Positions 56,051 to 64,000 of a stretch of DNA of 64,000 nt are shown here, piece after piece. The notes beneath the pieces are model-generated. The model did no database searches. It was not told the origin of the DNA and saw only the letters and a program-made list of their open reading frames with translations. The translations under genes and the position numbers were made by a program. Location of the stretch: positions 1 through 64,000 of the forward strand of contig NZ_BAKG01000010.1 in NCBI RefSeq assembly GCF_000614065.1. The letters run 5' to 3'. Position 1 is the first letter of the stretch. Each line of letters starts with the position of its first letter. This DNA is from Prevotella dentasini JCM 15908 (GTDB lineage Bacteria; Bacteroidota; Bacteroidia; Bacteroidales; Bacteroidaceae).

Positions 56051-57542
56051 GCCTTGTGTCCTCCTATTTGCTGATTGCGTTCTCTCGCCGTAGCTCCTTC
56101 TTCAAAGTTAAGGCCCCGCAGAAGCGAGTTTCTTCCAAATTTTTGTTTGATGCTGATAGTCGTTTCCTGTATTCTGCGCTCCTTTGCCAATGCTTTTTCT
56201 TCCTTTTCCCTTTTGTCTGCTAAGGCTTCATAGTCGGTAAACATGTCAAGTTGTACAGGTACGGCAGTCTGTCGGTGTGCCTGCTCTTCACTGACGACGT
56301 GGTTGGTAGAAATGTTAATGCGTCTTACCAACAGCTGTGCGTCTACAATCTGGTCGTAAAGCTGCACAACGGATTGGGTTATGAGGCGGGTAGACGAAGT
56401 GAAACGGTGAAGATTGGCTGTTCCATGGGCATATTTGGTACTTTCCTGCCGTACCAATCCGTATCTACCGGGCCTGTATAGTGGATGGATTGCCGGTTGA
56501 GGCTTTCTTTATCGTAGCCGATGCTGATGACAAGCTGGTCGGTAACGCATTGTTTCTCCACCAAGCTGAGAGCTATGTCTTCCGCCATTTCCTGCACGAC
56601 GATGCGGGCTTTGGAAAAGGTGTAGGCTTCCTGCAATACCTGTCCGCTACTCATAGAATTGTTTTCCGGACGATAGGCCTTTATCATCTCCATCGTGCAG
56701 GGCTCCCATCCCCACGCATGGTCAATGAGCAGTTCGGCATTGATACCGAACAGGTTATACAGCAACTCCTCGTGGTTGATGGAACAACGGGCAATCTTTC
56801 CCATGGTGTCCAGTCCGTAGCAGGCAAGCCGCTGAGCCGTCCCTCTGCCCACTCGCCAGAAATCTGTTATAGGCCGATGATTCCAGAGTTTCTCCCGGTA
56901 CGTCCTCTCGTCCAACTCCGCAATCCGCACCCCGTCCTTTCCGGCAGGAATATGCTTGGCCACAATATCCATGGCCACCTTGCAGAGATAGAGGTTGGTG
57001 CCGATACCTGCCGTTGCAGTGATTCCTGTCTGTCGGAATACATCCTGAATCATCTTCATTGCCAGTTCACGGGCGGTCATCTTGTAGCTCTTGAGGTAGT
57101 TGGTGGCATCAATAAACACCTCGTCTATGGAGTAGACATGGATGTCTTCGGACGAAATATACTTCAGATAGATGCTGTATATACGAGAACTATGTCTGAT
57201 ATAGTATGCCATACGTGGCACAGCGGCTATATAGTCTATTTCCCAATCAGGATGCTCTTTCAGCTCTTTGTCCGATATGGATTTCCCTGTCAGCCGCTGA
57301 CGGGGCGATTTTCTCCTTCTCTCCTCGTTTACTTCCTTTAGCCGTTGGTTGACTTCAAAGAGCCGTGCACGTCCGGGAATACCGTATGCTTTCAGCGATG
57401 GCGACACTGCCAAGCAGATAGTCTTCTCTGTACGGCTGACATCGGCAACGACAAGGTTGGTCGTAAGTGGGTCGAGACCGCGCTCGGCACACTCCGCGCT
57501 GGCATAAAACGACTTGAGGTCGATGGCTATGAAAGTGGGCAT
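56047..57542 (-). CDS. Y-family DNA polymerase (DinB/UmuC type), frameshifted in this sequence
   Basis: A translesion polymerase. The N-terminus [20 protein letters not shown] carries the first catalytic aspartate, and [15 protein letters not shown] the second pair (Asp-Glu). [20 protein letters not shown] and [20 protein letters not shown] (helix-hairpin-helix) follow. The little-finger domain [12 protein letters not shown] continues in another frame as [20 protein letters not shown]. The break near 56438 is repaired by one C/G (GTACCAAA to GTACCCAAA), giving ~498 residues with a C-terminal extension ([20 protein letters not shown]). It is coupled to the YolD-like gene. Confidence 0.87.
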
Positions 57543-58013: not shown

Positions 58014-59556
58014 TTACTCCCACTCTATCGTCGAGGGCGGCTTTGAGGAGATGTCATAACATACTCGGTTGACTCCTTTCACCTTACGGATAATCTCGTT
58101 CGACACGTCTGCCATGAAGTCGTAAGGCAGGTGCGCCCAATCTGCCGTCATGGCATCCATAGAGGTTACGGCACGCAGGGCAACAGGATGCTCGTAAGTG
58201 CGCTCATCGCCCATCACCCCTACGGAGCGGATGGTGGAGAGAAGTACCGTACCTGCCTGCCATACATGGTCGTAGAGACTTGTGCCGTCGGGCATGGTGT
58301 AGTCGTGCATCTTCTCTATGTAGATATCGTCGGCATCTTGCAGGATACGCACTTTCTCACGGGTGATGTCGCCAAGGATGCGGACAGCCAAACCCGGACC
58401 GGGGAACGGATGACGCTTGATGAGACGTTCGGGCATGCCCATCTCGTAGCCTACACGGCGCACCTCGTCCTTGAAGAGCCATCGGAGCGGTTCGCAGAGC
58501 TGCAAGTGCATCTCCTTGGGCAGACCGCCAACGTTGTGGTGGCTCTTGATGACCATGCCTGTAATGCTCAGGCTCTCTATGCGGTCTGGGTAAATCGTTC
58601 CCTGAGCCAGCCATTTGGCATCGGTTATCTTCTTCGCCTCAGCATTGAAGACCTCTACAAAGTCGCGGCCGATAATCTTGCGTTTCTGCTCCGGGTCGGT
58701 TACCCCCTCCAAGTCCTTGAAGAACTTTTCCGAAGCGTCCACACCTATAACGTTCAGCCGAGGCCCTTATAGCTTCCATCACCTTCTCAAACTCATTCTT
58801 GCGCAACATGCCGTGGTCAACGAAGATACATGTAAGGTTCTTGCCAATGGCCTTGTTGAGCAAGGTGGCACAGACAGAAGAGTCCACACCGCCCGACAGA
58901 CCGAGGATGACACGGTCGTTGCCCACCTGCTCGCGGAGTTCCTTTACGGTACTTTCAACGAACGAGGCAGCACTCCACTCCTGCCGGCTGCCGCAGATGT
59001 CTACGACAAAGTTCTTCAAGAGCTGTTTGCCTTGGAGGGAATGATAGACCTCCGGGTGGAACTGAACGGCCCAGACGGGCTGTTTCGTAGAGGCAAAGGC
59101 GGCAAACCTGACATCGCCCGTAGAGGCGATAATCTCGTAGTCGTCGGGGATGGCCGTAATCGTGTCGCCATGGCTCATCCATACTTGCGAGCCTTTCTCG
59201 AATCCGCTGAAAAGCGGGTTGTCGAGCGCAATGCTTTCCAGATTTGCACGTCCATACTCGCGTGTACCAGTCTGCTCAACCTTACCACCGTTGACATGGG
59301 AAATAAACTGTGCACCGTAGCAGATGCCGAGCACGGGAACCTTTCCGATGAACTCGCTCAAGTCGACCTTGAACGCTTCAGGAGCGTGTACCGAATAGGG
59401 AGAACCCGAGAGAATCACACCTATGACCGATGGGTCGTCCTTCGGAAACTTGTTGTACGGCAGGATTTCACAGAAGGTATCCAACTCACGGACACGACGG
59501 CCAATAAGCTGCGTAGTCTGTGAGCCGAAATCCAAAATAATGATTTTCTGTTGCAT
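58014..59556 (-). CDS. guaA: GMP synthase (glutamine-hydrolysing), two adjacent lost bases
   Basis: Converts XMP to GMP with glutamine and ATP. The N-terminal amidotransferase has [18 protein letters not shown], the nucleophile in [10 protein letters not shown] and [11 protein letters not shown]. The ATP pyrophosphatase domain has the PP-loop [12 protein letters not shown] and [11 protein letters not shown]. The frame breaks between KVMEA and [12 protein letters not shown]. Restoring two bases (near 58757 and 58772; GGCTG to GGCCTG and GCTAT to GCCTAT) gives [18 protein letters not shown] and 514 residues. It starts at [11 protein letters not shown] (59556). The dimerisation domain ends TVVYDIS-like [15 protein letters not shown], as in homologs. 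Confidence 0.93.
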
Positions 59557-59691
59557 AAAATATAATTGTCTGTATTTTATTCTATATAGAATTAAGGGAG
59601 TCGGGCGAATACCTTCATGCAGTATCTTGGAGAGAGACTCCAAGCATATATTTGACTTGATTTCTCAAACTCTCTTTAGTCCTTGACTTCT

Positions 59692-60482
59692 TCAATCCTT
59701 GATTTCTTCCAAAAACGCTTCGGCATCTTTCAGCGTGTTGAGCTTGCCTACATCCATCAGTTTCAAATCGTCCTTGACACATCCACGGATGGTCAGGCGA
59801 TTGGCATACTTCAGGTAGAAATCCATTATCGGGAATCGCTCGGGACACTCTGCCTTCATCAGCCAAAGACAGTGGGATGAATGGTGTGGATGCCGGAGAA
59901 GGCGTAGAGCCGATAGCCATGCTGTATGAGATGCTCACCATCGGGCAGAACGAAACGAAGTTGTTGAATTGGCCTGTAGGGCGACTTCACCTCCCCCGTT
60001 TCAACATTAGTCCAACCAACGAGACGCATCACTTTGTCAAAGATAAGGTATCGCTTTGTAATACGGCGGCTGACAAGCAGCAAGGCATCTGCCTTGGTAT
60101 CGTTTTCCTCATTGGCAGACATTGCATAGAAGGCTCTCAAGTCTATATTGCTGAGTATATCCACATTGTGAATCAGTACAGGCTCACTATCAACAAAAAG
60201 CGGAGCAGCCTTCCTGATACCGCCTCCGGTATCAAGGAGCTGCTCCGTTTCGTCGGAAACAAAGATGTCTGTTCCGAAATTATGGTCGTTGAGATAATTC
60301 TTAATCTGATTGGCAAAGTGATGAACGTTTACGACGATACGGTCGCAACCGGCACTACGCAGACTAAGGATTGTATGTTCAATGAGCGGTTTGTCCCCCA
60401 CCCTTACCAGTGCTTTGGGCACCGTGTCGGTAAGCGGTTTTAACCGGGTTCCGAGACCAGCTGCAAAAATCATTGCTTGCAT
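59692..60482 (-). CDS. Sugar-1-phosphate nucleotidyltransferase (MurU-like), frameshifted
   Basis: A nucleotidyltransferase of ~263 residues. It opens with MIFAAGLGTRLKPLTDTVPK (NTP-binding signature), then VGDKPLIEHTILSLRSAGC and HNVDILSNIDL (metal-binding Asp). The frame ends early at GIHTIHPTVFG. Adding one G near 59863 (TTTGGC to TTTGGGC) extends it by 57 residues through LMKAECPERFPIMDFYLKYA to LEEIKD at 59692. It lies next to a kinase of the AmgK type, so it is probably MurU-like, making UDP-MurNAc from MurNAc-1-phosphate in cell-wall recycling. Specificity for another sugar is possible. Confidence 0.82.
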
Positions 60483-60505
60483 TAGCTTCACTTTTTTAAT
60501 GCGTG

Positions 60506-60513
60506 CAAATGTA
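60506..60513 (-). promoter_or_regulatory. -7 box of the nucleotidyltransferase gene
   Basis: Minus-strand TACATTTG, 23 nt from the start at 60482. Confidence 0.4.
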
Positions 60514-60641
60514 GCATTTTTTTTTCAGACACCAAAGGAATCGTTAGGGAAAATAAAGCCTCCAAGCCTAAAGAGAGAACCTCATTCCGTCCCCTCACAA
60601 AGAGGAAAAGAGTGATTATGCGAAAAAAAAGCAGCCTGCAA

Positions 60642-60682
60642 GATTCGGTTTGTGTGCGACCAAGTCTGCAATAAACCGAATC
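60642..60682. terminator. Hairpin between kinase and nucleotidyltransferase genes
   Basis: GATTCGGTTT and AAACCGAATC are perfect 10-bp arms with a 21-nt loop, 60 nt past the kinase stop (60743, minus strand). Possible terminator, followed on the minus strand by a T-rich tract around 60622-60630. Confidence 0.55.
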
Positions 60683-60742
60683 CCCGACAGAAAATCATCA
60701 GAGAGACTATAGGAAGGTCTCACATTCAACTTCTTTCCTTTT

Positions 60743-62320
60743 TTAGGGAGAAGTCGGGGAAGAAGCAGGTATCGTTTGTTCTATCCCTTGCTCCCTGTGC
60801 ATTATTCTCACTTCTATACCGTACTTCTCATGTATATGTTCTGCCAAATGCTGTGCACTATATACGGAACGGTGCTGACCGCCCGTACAGCCGAAGCTGA
60901 ACATCAAGTCGGTGAAACCACGCTGCATATACCGCTCCACGTGGTGCTCGGCAAGTTTGTACACGGGTTTGAGGAAATCAAGTATCTCACCGTCATCTTC
61001 CAAGAAGCGGATGACAGGCTCGTCCAACCCTGTTATTTTCTTATAAGGCTCGTAGCGGCCGGGATTATGCGTACTTCGGCAATCGAAAACATAGCCACCA
61101 CCATTACCCGACGTATCTTCCGGGATTCCCTTCTTGAAAGAGAAGCTGAACACGCGCACGATCAACGGGCCTTTTCCGTCGTATTTGGAGAACGTGGCAG
61201 GCCCGTCCAACGGATTCGCCTTGTAGATGTCGTTCTCGGCTATCTTGAATCCGTCCGACCGATTGGCAGCCGGTTGTTCTATACGGGCAAACTGCGGCAG
61301 TTCGGTCAGTCGGCGCAGCATGTCCATCATATAAGGATAAGGGAAAACCTTTTCTCCCAATGCCAGCAAGTCGCGTAGGTTCTGAATGGCAGGAGGAATG
61401 GAATCAACAAAATGCTTCTTCCGCTCAAAGTAGCCACGGAAGCCGTATGCGCCCAAGACTTGCAAGGTGCGGAAAAGGACGAAGAGCGAAAGCCGGTTGA
61501 CGAAATGCCGCTTCGAAGGCACTTCCGTATAATTTTTTAGGCTCTGATAGTATTCAAAGACCAATTCGCGACGCAGTTTGAAGGAATATTTAGCACTCGC
61601 CTGCCAGAGAAAGGAAGCGAGATCGTAGTAAAACGGACCTTTCCGCCCGCCTTGAAAGTCAATGAAGTAAGGACTTCCCATACTGTCCAGCATAATGTTC
61701 CGGGCTTGAAAATCGCGGTAGAGAAACGAGTCCATTTTCTCGGAGGTCAAATCTTTGGCAAACATACGGAAATTGGCCTCAAGTTTCAACTCGTGGAAAT
61801 CAAGCTCGGTTGCCTTCAGGAAGCAATACTTAAAGTAGTTCAGGTCGAAGAGTACACTCTCCTGATTAAACTCGGGCTGCGGATAACATTGGGAAAAGTC
61901 CAGCCCGCGTGCGCCCCGGAGCTGAATGTTCGGCAGCTCGCGGATAGTACGGCGTAGCAGCTTTTGCTCGGCAAGGTTATAGCGTCCGCCTGTTTCCCGT
62001 CCTCCACCGACAGCATCAAAAAGCGAAGTATCTCCAAGATCAGTTTGCAGATAGCAAGTCTCGTCGTCAGATACAGCCAAAACGTGCGGAACGGGCAGTT
62101 GCCGTTTCTCAAAATGCCGCGCAAGATAGACGAAGGCATGATTTTCGTCGCGGCTCGTACCGATGACGCCAATAACCGTCTCGCCATCCTCGTCAGCCAG
62201 CCGGTAGTATTCCCGGTTGCTGCCTGCCCCTGCCAGTTTCTCCACCTTGGCAGGCTGGCAGCCTTTCCATTTCTTATATAGTTCTGATAGTTTCTCCATT
62301 CCGTATAGTTTTTCTGTCAT
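60743..62320 (-). CDS. AmgK-like sugar kinase fused to RapZ C-terminal domain
   Basis: Residues ~1-335 are an aminoglycoside-phosphotransferase-fold kinase close to AmgK, the anomeric MurNAc/GlcNAc kinase. They include AGAGSNREYYRL, the catalytic loop FLYRDFQARNIMLD (Tyr in place of the usual His before Arg-Asp) and the metal-binding YFIDFQGGRKGPFYYDLASF. Residues ~385-520 are a RapZ C-terminal domain (VRVFSFSFKKGIPEDTSG, FDCRSTHNPGRYEPYKKITG, SFGCTGGQHRSVYSAQHLA), but the N-terminal RapZ ATPase domain is absent. In E. coli that C-terminal domain binds glucosamine 6-phosphate and small RNA. Met at 62299 is an alternative start. It is next to the MurU-like gene. Confidence 0.88.
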   Translation of the reverse strand: MTEKLYGMEKLSELYKKWKGCQPAKVEKLAGAGSNREYYRLADEDGETVIGVIGTSRDENHAFVYLARHFEKRQLPVPHVLAVSDDETCYLQTDLGDTSLFDAVGGGRETGGRYNLAEQKLLRRTIRELPNIQLRGARGLDFSQCYPQPEFNQESVLFDLNYFKYCFLKATELDFHELKLEANFRMFAKDLTSEKMDSFLYRDFQARNIMLDSMGSPYFIDFQGGRKGPFYYDLASFLWQASAKYSFKLRRELVFEYYQSLKNYTEVPSKRHFVNRLSLFVLFRTLQVLGAYGFRGYFERKKHFVDSIPPAIQNLRDLLALGEKVFPYPYMMDMLRRLTELPQFARIEQPAANRSDGFKIAENDIYKANPLDGPATFSKYDGKGPLIVRVFSFSFKKGIPEDTSGNGGGYVFDCRSTHNPGRYEPYKKITGLDEPVIRFLEDDGEILDFLKPVYKLAEHHVERYMQRGFTDLMFSFGCTGGQHRSVYSAQHLAEHIHEKYGIEVRIMHREQGIEQTIPASSPTSP

Positions 62321-63140: not shown

Positions 63141-64000
63141 TTATTTCTTGTTCTTTATCTTCTCAACATAGGCATCAATGACAGCCACTGCGGTAACGTT
63201 GACAATGTCCCGGACTGATGCTTCGAAATCGGTGAAATGGATAGGCTTGTTCAGTCCCATCTGAATCGGGCCGATAACCTCCGTTTCGGGACTGAGTCCC
63301 TGCAAGAGCTTGTAGCCGCTGTTGGCCGAGGAGAGGTCGGGAAAAACGAGCGTATTGACGTTCTTGCCTTTCAGGCGTGTGAAGGGGAACTTCTCGTCGC
63401 GTAGTTTTCTGTCAAGGGCAAAGTTTACCTGAATTTCTCCATCAATGGCGAGGTCGGGATTCTCTTTCTGGAGTATTTCTACTGCCGTATGTACCCGCAG
63501 GGGCGAGCCTGTGGTATCGGCACCGAAATTAGAGTAAGAGAGCATAGCTATGACCGGCTCGTCGTTGAAGAACCTCACCGAGTGGGCTGCCAACCGGGCA
63601 ACATCGGTAAGTACGTCGGAATCAGGATGACGGTTGATGAGCGTGTCGGCAATGTAGTAGACGCCTTTCTTGGTATTAAGGATGTGCATAGTGCCGAAGT
63701 GTCCGTATTCGGGACGGATGCCTATGACCTCCTTTGCAACCTTAATGGTGTTGCTGTATTTGGTATAAAGACCCGTAATGAAGGCATCGGCATCTCCGTT
63801 TTCGACCATGGACATACCGAAATAGTTGCGTTCGTACATCTTGTCGCAGGCCTCCTCGAAGATATATCCTGCCGGGCACGCTTCTCAGTGAGGTGCTTTG
63901 CATACGTGGCACGCCGTCCCTGCTCCTTGTCTGCACGCATATCAATGATTTCAATACCTGTAAGGTCGAGCTTCAGGCGATGGGCTACACGTGCCAGACG
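63141..64000 (-). CDS. maeB: NADP-malic enzyme, phosphotransacetylase-like C-terminal part (5' end off window), frameshifted
   Basis: The visible ~287 residues are the phosphotransacetylase-like domain that follows the malic enzyme domain in MaeB. This enzyme decarboxylates malate to pyruvate with NADP+, and the domain has a regulatory role there. Landmarks are RLARVAHRLKLDLTGIEIID at the edge, MYERNYFGMSMVENGDADAF, VARLAAHSVRFFNDEPVIAM and PIQMGLNKPIHFTDFEASVR. The frame breaks near 63869. Adding one G/C (CAGGAT to CAGGGAT) joins RARQGYIFEEACDKMYERN. The malic enzyme domain would lie beyond base 64000. A stand-alone phosphate acyltransferase is the alternative. Confidence 0.8.

Follow-up and report, generated by a model that had tools for sequence, protein, structure and literature searches.

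What does the C-terminal domain of RapZ do when it is joined to a putative cell-wall-sugar kinase? The question is raised by a 64,000-nucleotide stretch of Prevotella dentasini JCM 15908 (NZ_BAKG01000010.1, positions 1 to 64,000; the window), in which an open reading frame (ORF) on the reverse strand combines the two next to a gene for a MurU-like nucleotidyltransferase. We find the fusion to be genuine and conserved, in association with an AmgK/MurU-type pair. Judged from its sequence, the RapZ domain seems to serve a recycling enzyme as a metabolite sensor or linker rather than to act as an RNA regulator.

Domain architecture of the fusion

The ORF at 60743-62320 (-) is uninterrupted and encodes 525 amino acids (aa) that form, from N- to C-terminus, an AmgK-like APH kinase (hereafter K) and, beyond a flexible linker, the whole RapZ C-terminal domain (hereafter R). 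In Pfam, APH (PF01636) matches residues 26-254 (E 2.6e-13), and the RapZ C-terminal domain PF22740 matches residues 387-511 over profile positions 2-120 of 121 (E 1.8e-31). A first-pass annotation had proposed just such a fusion with an intact GCTGGQHRSVY motif; both domains indeed lie in a single intact ORF, and the motif is unbroken in the window protein. Met8 (62299) may be the true start, since many of 80 relatives align from residue 8. The 26-residue linker is of low confidence in the AlphaFold model, so R need not sit on K. The source genome (2.55 Mb, 41 contigs, 85.85% complete) holds one PF22740 match. The features of the locus, all on the reverse strand, with U denoting the MurU-like partner, are:

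61301-62299 (-): K, AmgK-like APH-fold kinase domain, residues 8-340 (PF01636; NF045759 best kinase match; 3csv fold)
61697-61720 (-): YRDFQARN, putative catalytic loop of K with Asp203 and Asn208 (invariant residues in aligned K domains)
61172-61249 (-): flexible linker, residues 358-383 (pLDDT <50 in the AlphaFold model)
60788-61162 (-): R, RapZ C-terminal domain, residues 387-511 (PF22740; structural match to 5o5s)
60866-60892 (-): GCTGGQHRS anion-pocket loop, residues 477-485, corresponding to E. coli C247, T248, G249, H252 and R253 (invariant in 49/49)
59859-60482 (-): U, MurU-like nucleotidyltransferase, N-terminal three quarters, with ATG at 60482 (PF00483; NF045761, 127 bits; whole-genome match with one TGA)
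59692-59880 (-): U, C-terminal quarter in another frame, with an apparent frameshift near 59860 (three-frame translation)

The architecture is not hidden, both domains having Pfam models. Its function appears unstudied in the literature searched, where we found no publication on the K-R fusion and none combining RapZ with AmgK.

Distribution of the kinase, the RapZ domain and the nucleotidyltransferase

Using profile searches, we found R in 49 of 395 Bacteroidota genomes, covering 36 of 170 genera (the carriers); within the window's family, 78 of 101 genomes have it. A K profile built from the carriers (A1) matched 134 of the 395 genomes at E 1e-10. These comprise 50 strong matches (E ≤7e-80) and 84 weak ones (E ≥5e-47), a line placed at the E-value gap after the gap was seen; all 84 weak matches fall in one family, f18, and the 50 strong ones are the 49 carriers plus one further genome, G009. 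The U profile (A2) matched 141 genomes at E 1e-30, and its strong group (E ≤6e-58) consists of 51 genomes, namely the 50 with strong K and G231. R never occurs without K and U among the 395 genomes. Specifically, strong K is present in 49/49 genomes with R versus 1/346 without it (Fisher p 4e-62, a value that ignores shared ancestry and uses a K profile built from carriers). The association of K and R is far beyond chance, and its linkage across the phylum supports a functional tie of R to the AmgK/MurU-type pair.

A scan of one genome per species returned at least 593 stretches encoding a relative at E 1e-3, some of which could be other RapZ-domain proteins. Our close-relative counts are based on the best 80 of these, which carry labels such as Prevotella, Bacteroides, Phocaeicola, Parabacteroides and Paludibacter. 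The top-scoring named relatives are Prevotella-type (uncultured Prevotella, Hoylesella oralis and Leyella lascolaii, among others), in a list that may omit the window's own record. As a separate observation, G231 carries a strong-group MurU-like gene (L208:6505-7260), with kinase and RapZ domain not above threshold in the genome.

Gene order and states of fusion

In the fetched stretches, K and R share one ORF in 37 of the 49 carriers and R is its own gene in 12, eight of which show the order K, R, U. In one genome with separate R (G031), an in-frame stop is almost all that sets it apart from the fused form. In 38 of the 49 fetched loci, U is a same-strand neighbour of R or K-R (37 directly, one with an intervening ORF); the whole-genome U search adds L073, for a count of 39. 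R and U are together in G331, whose K is at another place. The genomes G306, G271 and G180 have K, R and U, each at its own site. Among neighbour groups spanning at least three families, K/R and U are conserved, and there is one other, found in seven loci of four families at scattered offsets.

Some genomes go further and encode K, R and U as a single chain. Two genera of the window's family do so: G402 (L212:1453-3735, 760 aa) and G474 (L213:1760-4057, 765 aa), the U part lacking a start Met at both junctions. We examined 10 of the 78 carriers in this family in detail and the others by open-frame length; the only further one above 570 aa, G403, is extended at its N-terminus by a stretch that matches nothing in Pfam, and its U is a separate gene. 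In G431 (L216), K, R and U are separate genes with 4-nucleotide overlaps, while G351, of the same genus, has K and R fused; the K and R genes of G428 (L215) overlap but use different frames. Direct K-U pairs also occur. A 330-aa K overlaps U directly in G009 with no R, and K and U overlap directly without a RapZ domain in 7/7 sampled f18 loci (L198-L204), where the MurU-like protein is longer (309-320 aa).

To place the fused and separate states, we drew a kinase tree of 55 rows: the 49 carriers, G009 and five of the seven fetched f18 genomes. With midpoint rooting, the carriers and G009 form one group against f18, within which the earliest branch is a fused copy (G326). To explain separate R, at least three changes are required on the tree as drawn, or two when only well-supported branches are counted. 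The tree is provisional, with long branches for G180, G009 and G017 and bootstrap values that have not settled; it makes an old fusion with later splits likely, not proven. In family f5 (L073-L079), where R is separate, the kinase is strongly diverged, with ~30% identity to the window and a tree branch of 2.15.

The kinase and its partner resemble AmgK and MurU

Among NCBIfam kinase models, AmgK (NF045759) is the top match of the window protein, with 56.7 bits where the cut-off is 550. Four other strong-K proteins score 46.7-74.0 bits on the same model and one f18 protein 110.9 bits; for all six K proteins scanned, no named kinase model scores above AmgK. R202, D203, F204, R207, N208 and D221 are invariant in 22/22 aligned K domains. 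From APH kinases, we take Asp203 and Asn208 to be catalytic and Asp221 to be a metal site. The closest solved structure to K, both by fold and by sequence, is 3csv, a putative aminoglycoside phosphotransferase from Silicibacter. In contrast to the fusion, it is a 333-aa chain, matched over the kinase part only, and its own function is putative.

The first-pass annotation had also placed a MurU-like enzyme beside the kinase. This holds, with a gene that is apparently frameshifted in the draft assembly. The U ORF, 59859-60491 (-), encodes a nucleotidyltransferase (PF00483) whose best NCBIfam match is MurU (NF045761), at 127.3 bits against a cut-off of 250, a score that rests on the first 210 codons with the C-terminus excluded. 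Intact relatives in L066 and L046 reach 125.4 and 138.4 bits, also under 250, and MurU is the top model for 6/6 U proteins scanned. Like the AmgK-MurU pair of Pseudomonas and Caulobacter, K and U combine an APH-fold kinase with a nucleotidyltransferase, mostly adjacent, and these are their best-scoring named families. Unlike that pair, they fall far below the equivalog cut-offs, K carries or neighbours a RapZ C-terminal domain, and AnmK is missing from 18/49 carriers. Caulobacter amgK and murU are reported with consecutive locus tags (PMC13046382), and Tannerella forsythia is described as a user of AmgK and MurU (PMC7670621). N-acetylmuramic acid (MurNAc) is a putative substrate of K, whose model scores lie well below the AmgK equivalog cut-off.

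The RapZ domain keeps its fold and most of its anion pocket

A model of R alone (pLDDT 92) superposes on the E. coli RapZ C-terminal domain (CTD) 5o5s with Z 19.0 and a root-mean-square deviation of 1.6 over 123 residues; the next fold matches are PFK-type and others, at Z ~6. In E. coli numbering, C247, T248, G249, G250, H252, R253, S254, D182, F181, R184 and G200 are kept in 49/49 carriers. The closest known counterparts of R are RapZ of E. coli and YvcJ of B. subtilis, of which we compared the former. R shares with E. coli RapZ the CTD fold, the anion-pocket loop and the dimer strand. It differs in being joined to a sugar kinase, in having no P-loop domain, and in the replacement of H190, W191, K251, R238 and the basic tail. 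The absence of the P-loop domain had been noted in the first reading of the window, and our profile search for PF03668 agrees: it found the domain in 0/49 carrier genomes, the window's included, with controls matched in 6/14 genomes. W191 of E. coli is needed for contact with the P-loop domain (PMC5737377), and its loss in R is as expected if that domain is gone.

The E. coli CTD binds glucosamine-6-phosphate (GlcN6P) with a KD of 10 nM (PMC7073468), and H190 is one of its pocket residues, the Ala mutant being inactive (PMC9841335). This residue is Gly in 49/49 carriers, so the ligand of R may differ from that of E. coli RapZ. The position of N236 is Arg in 45/49 and position 191 is Arg or Lys in 48/49. 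Together with the loss of H190, these changes suggest a re-tuned pocket, and the ligand may be another amino-sugar phosphate. Control of the kinase by an amino-sugar phosphate is plausible but unproven, with most of the anion pocket kept.

An RNA role appears unlikely

RapZ being an RNA-binding protein, R could also bind RNA and make the kinase RNA-controlled or RNA-regulating, as the first-pass annotation had suggested. The retained CTD fold would allow this, and part of the RNA-contact set listed for E. coli RapZ (PMC9841335) persists: R184 is kept in 49/49 carriers, and Lys or Arg stands at K170 in 47/49 and at R196 in 44/49 (largely as Lys). R268 is Lys or Arg in 41/49. In contrast, K251 is Gln in 48/49, R238 is aromatic in 49/49, K270 is uncharged in 49/49, and most carriers lack R211 and K194. 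The basic RNA-binding tail of enterobacterial RapZ, restricted to Enterobacteriaceae (PMC7073468), is absent: C-terminal tails in R are 2-23 aa long (median 9), with net charges of -4 to +2 (median 0). By overall charge, R (median +1, range -7 to +12) cannot be told apart from the E. coli RapZ-CTD (net +3); the argument against RNA is therefore built on the named residues and the tail. GlmZ (RF00083) was above cut-off in 0 of the 25 carriers searched out of 49, with a sub-threshold hit of 25 bits in G150, and an Rfam scan of the window gave no match. Because several contact residues and the basic tail are lost and GlmZ was above cut-off in none of these 25 carriers, RNA control is unlikely; we give the RNA-binding explanation very little credence, and this part of the first-pass proposal is not supported.

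Possible assembly and phosphatase roles

R might instead serve assembly alone, its dimer strand uniting two kinases and U for stability or channelling, with phosphate in the pocket having no regulatory meaning. The E. coli CTD dimerises by itself, and its self-interaction needs F181 and D182 (PMC5737377), both kept in all 49 carriers. The single K-R-U chains and the genome with R beside U and K elsewhere (G331) fit this explanation as well. A pure scaffold would not, however, be expected to hold C247, T248, G249, G250, H252, R253, S254 and R184 invariant in 49/49 carriers, and we consider a role limited to assembly unlikely.

The same invariance raises a further possibility, that R is a cysteine-dependent sugar phosphatase that strips the 6-phosphate from an amino sugar and passes the free sugar to K, as an analogue of MupP. 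C-X5-R-S is the spacing of cysteine phosphatases; GCTGGQHRS fits it, and C247-X5-R253-S254 is invariant in 49/49. In Pseudomonas, MupP removes the 6-phosphate just before AmgK acts (PMC5371407). E. coli RapZ C247S is inactive, its authors raise a catalytic SH role, and density after GlcN6P addition looked chemically transformed, in an article whose main text does not use the word phosphatase (PMC9841335). On the other hand, the motif is common to E. coli RapZ, for which no phosphatase activity is mentioned in the parts of the cited work drawn on here, and AnmK, the usual source of MurNAc-6-phosphate (MurNAc-6P), is absent from 18/49 carriers. The fold matches listed for R are RapZ, PFK and P-loop-type, with no cysteine phosphatase fold listed, which does not exclude one. 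Taken together, a phosphatase seems to us decidedly unlikely. We also considered a MurNAc-6P phosphatase through co-occurrence and rejected it: AnmK would be expected to track R, and it is present in 31/49 carriers (one weakly, G216, 1.2e-10) versus 271/395 genomes overall, which is no enrichment.

A proposed role in amino-sugar salvage

We favour a two-domain anomeric kinase for amino sugars in which R dimerises, binds a phosphorylated amino sugar, and ties and tunes K and U, a proposal to which we give an even chance of being right. K would phosphorylate a cell-wall amino sugar, putatively MurNAc and/or N-acetylglucosamine (GlcNAc), at C1, and U, a separate enzyme, would convert the sugar-1-phosphate to the UDP-sugar, as in AmgK-MurU salvage. 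R would be a RapZ C-terminal domain freed from its P-loop and RNA roles. It would probably dimerise through the conserved F-D strand, bind a phosphorylated amino sugar, its presumed ligand, in the retained anion pocket, and tie K together with U, tuning both to the level of amino-sugar phosphate in a direction that we can only suppose. Since GlcN6P comes from the de novo route, it is plausible that ample GlcN6P would turn salvage down; this direction is a guess.

Several observations weigh against this proposal. K and U both score far below the curated AmgK and MurU cut-offs of NCBIfam. The genomes missing AnmK include the window's own, and MurQ, present in 20/49 carriers at E 1e-20 (18 above the family cut-off), is missing in 29/49 at that threshold. 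With AnmK and MurQ often missing, the upstream MurNAc-6P route is not general in carriers. Neither G009 nor any of the 84 K-bearing f18 genomes gave an AnmK match, a result that counts for little since f18 is one family. Physical linkage has gaps, U being unlinked in 7/37 fused loci. Among the best 80 of the at least 593 relatives, U was seen in 51 stretches and not detected in 29, so the linkage is less tight close to the window than in the phylum as a whole. K occurs without R in G009 and the 84 f18 genomes, and because K-U pairs exist without R, R is not needed for the chemistry. Finally, the change at H190 leaves R without the full E. coli anion pocket.

Part of this evidence could mean that the pair salvages a sugar other than MurNAc or GlcNAc, AmgK and MurU being merely the nearest named families. 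The scores under all equivalog cut-offs and the frequent absence of AnmK and MurQ would fit. Against it, AmgK and MurU are the top models for every K and U protein scanned, and the adjacency of K and U mirrors the consecutive Caulobacter locus tags (PMC13046382); we regard another sugar as quite improbable. A broader idea starts from the RapZ domain itself. It may originally have been an amino-sugar salvage module that bound an amino-sugar 6-phosphate with its C-X5-R-S loop and perhaps removed the phosphate, with the RNA role of enterobacterial RapZ a later re-use. The Bacteroidota K-R-U set, fused or in trans, would then be a three-activity assembly making the UDP-sugar from either a free sugar or a sugar 6-phosphate. 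We hold this origin to be unlikely, and keep the sensing or linking role in salvage as our working proposal.

State of the partner gene and its neighbours in the assembly

U is split in this assembly. Frame 0 ends at 59859, and the conserved C-terminus, reaching 59692, lies in another frame in a three-frame translation. This piece gave no Pfam match alone and resembles, by eye, the U C-terminus of a genome of the same genus (G394, L066). In Hoylesella oralis (L113), the genes after K-R are an unbroken U of 247 aa and an ORF of 523 aa whose start resembles guaA; another same-genus genome (G423, L217) has the same order, with 246 and 514 aa. Downstream of U in the window, the GMP synthase gene guaA (58014-59643) has its GATase and GMP_synt_C domains in separate ORFs in two frames. 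Because guaA is also split, and relatives have an intact U and a single guaA-like ORF, an assembly error in U is as likely as a pseudogene.

On the upstream side, the ORF at 63141-64000 has a PTA_PTB phosphate acetyl/butyryltransferase domain that starts mid-domain, at profile position 103, and the preceding residues seem by eye to lie in another frame. Beyond guaA, 56379-57542 is an unbroken 387-aa ORF of the Y-family DNA polymerase type (PF00817). The breaks in U, guaA and the PTA_PTB ORF together suggest base errors in the assembly. Around the genes, we counted 7 promoter-like elements versus 3.5 (standard deviation 1.8) in shuffles, 6 terminator-like elements versus 3.8 (standard deviation 2.0), and 4 TAnnTTTG patterns versus 2.1; the promoter and terminator scans lie within about two standard deviations of the shuffles and were not used.

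Significance

Known as an RNA-binding sensor, RapZ is represented here by its sensor half alone, tied to a putative kinase for cell-wall sugars and to the partner of that kinase. In one of the main gut and oral phyla, metabolite binding by RapZ can therefore be studied apart from RNA. With K-R-U occurring both as one chain and as three genes, the physical link lends itself to direct testing. Should R tune or complete salvage, this would bear on the UDP-MurNAc supply and on how well drugs against UDP-MurNAc synthesis are tolerated.

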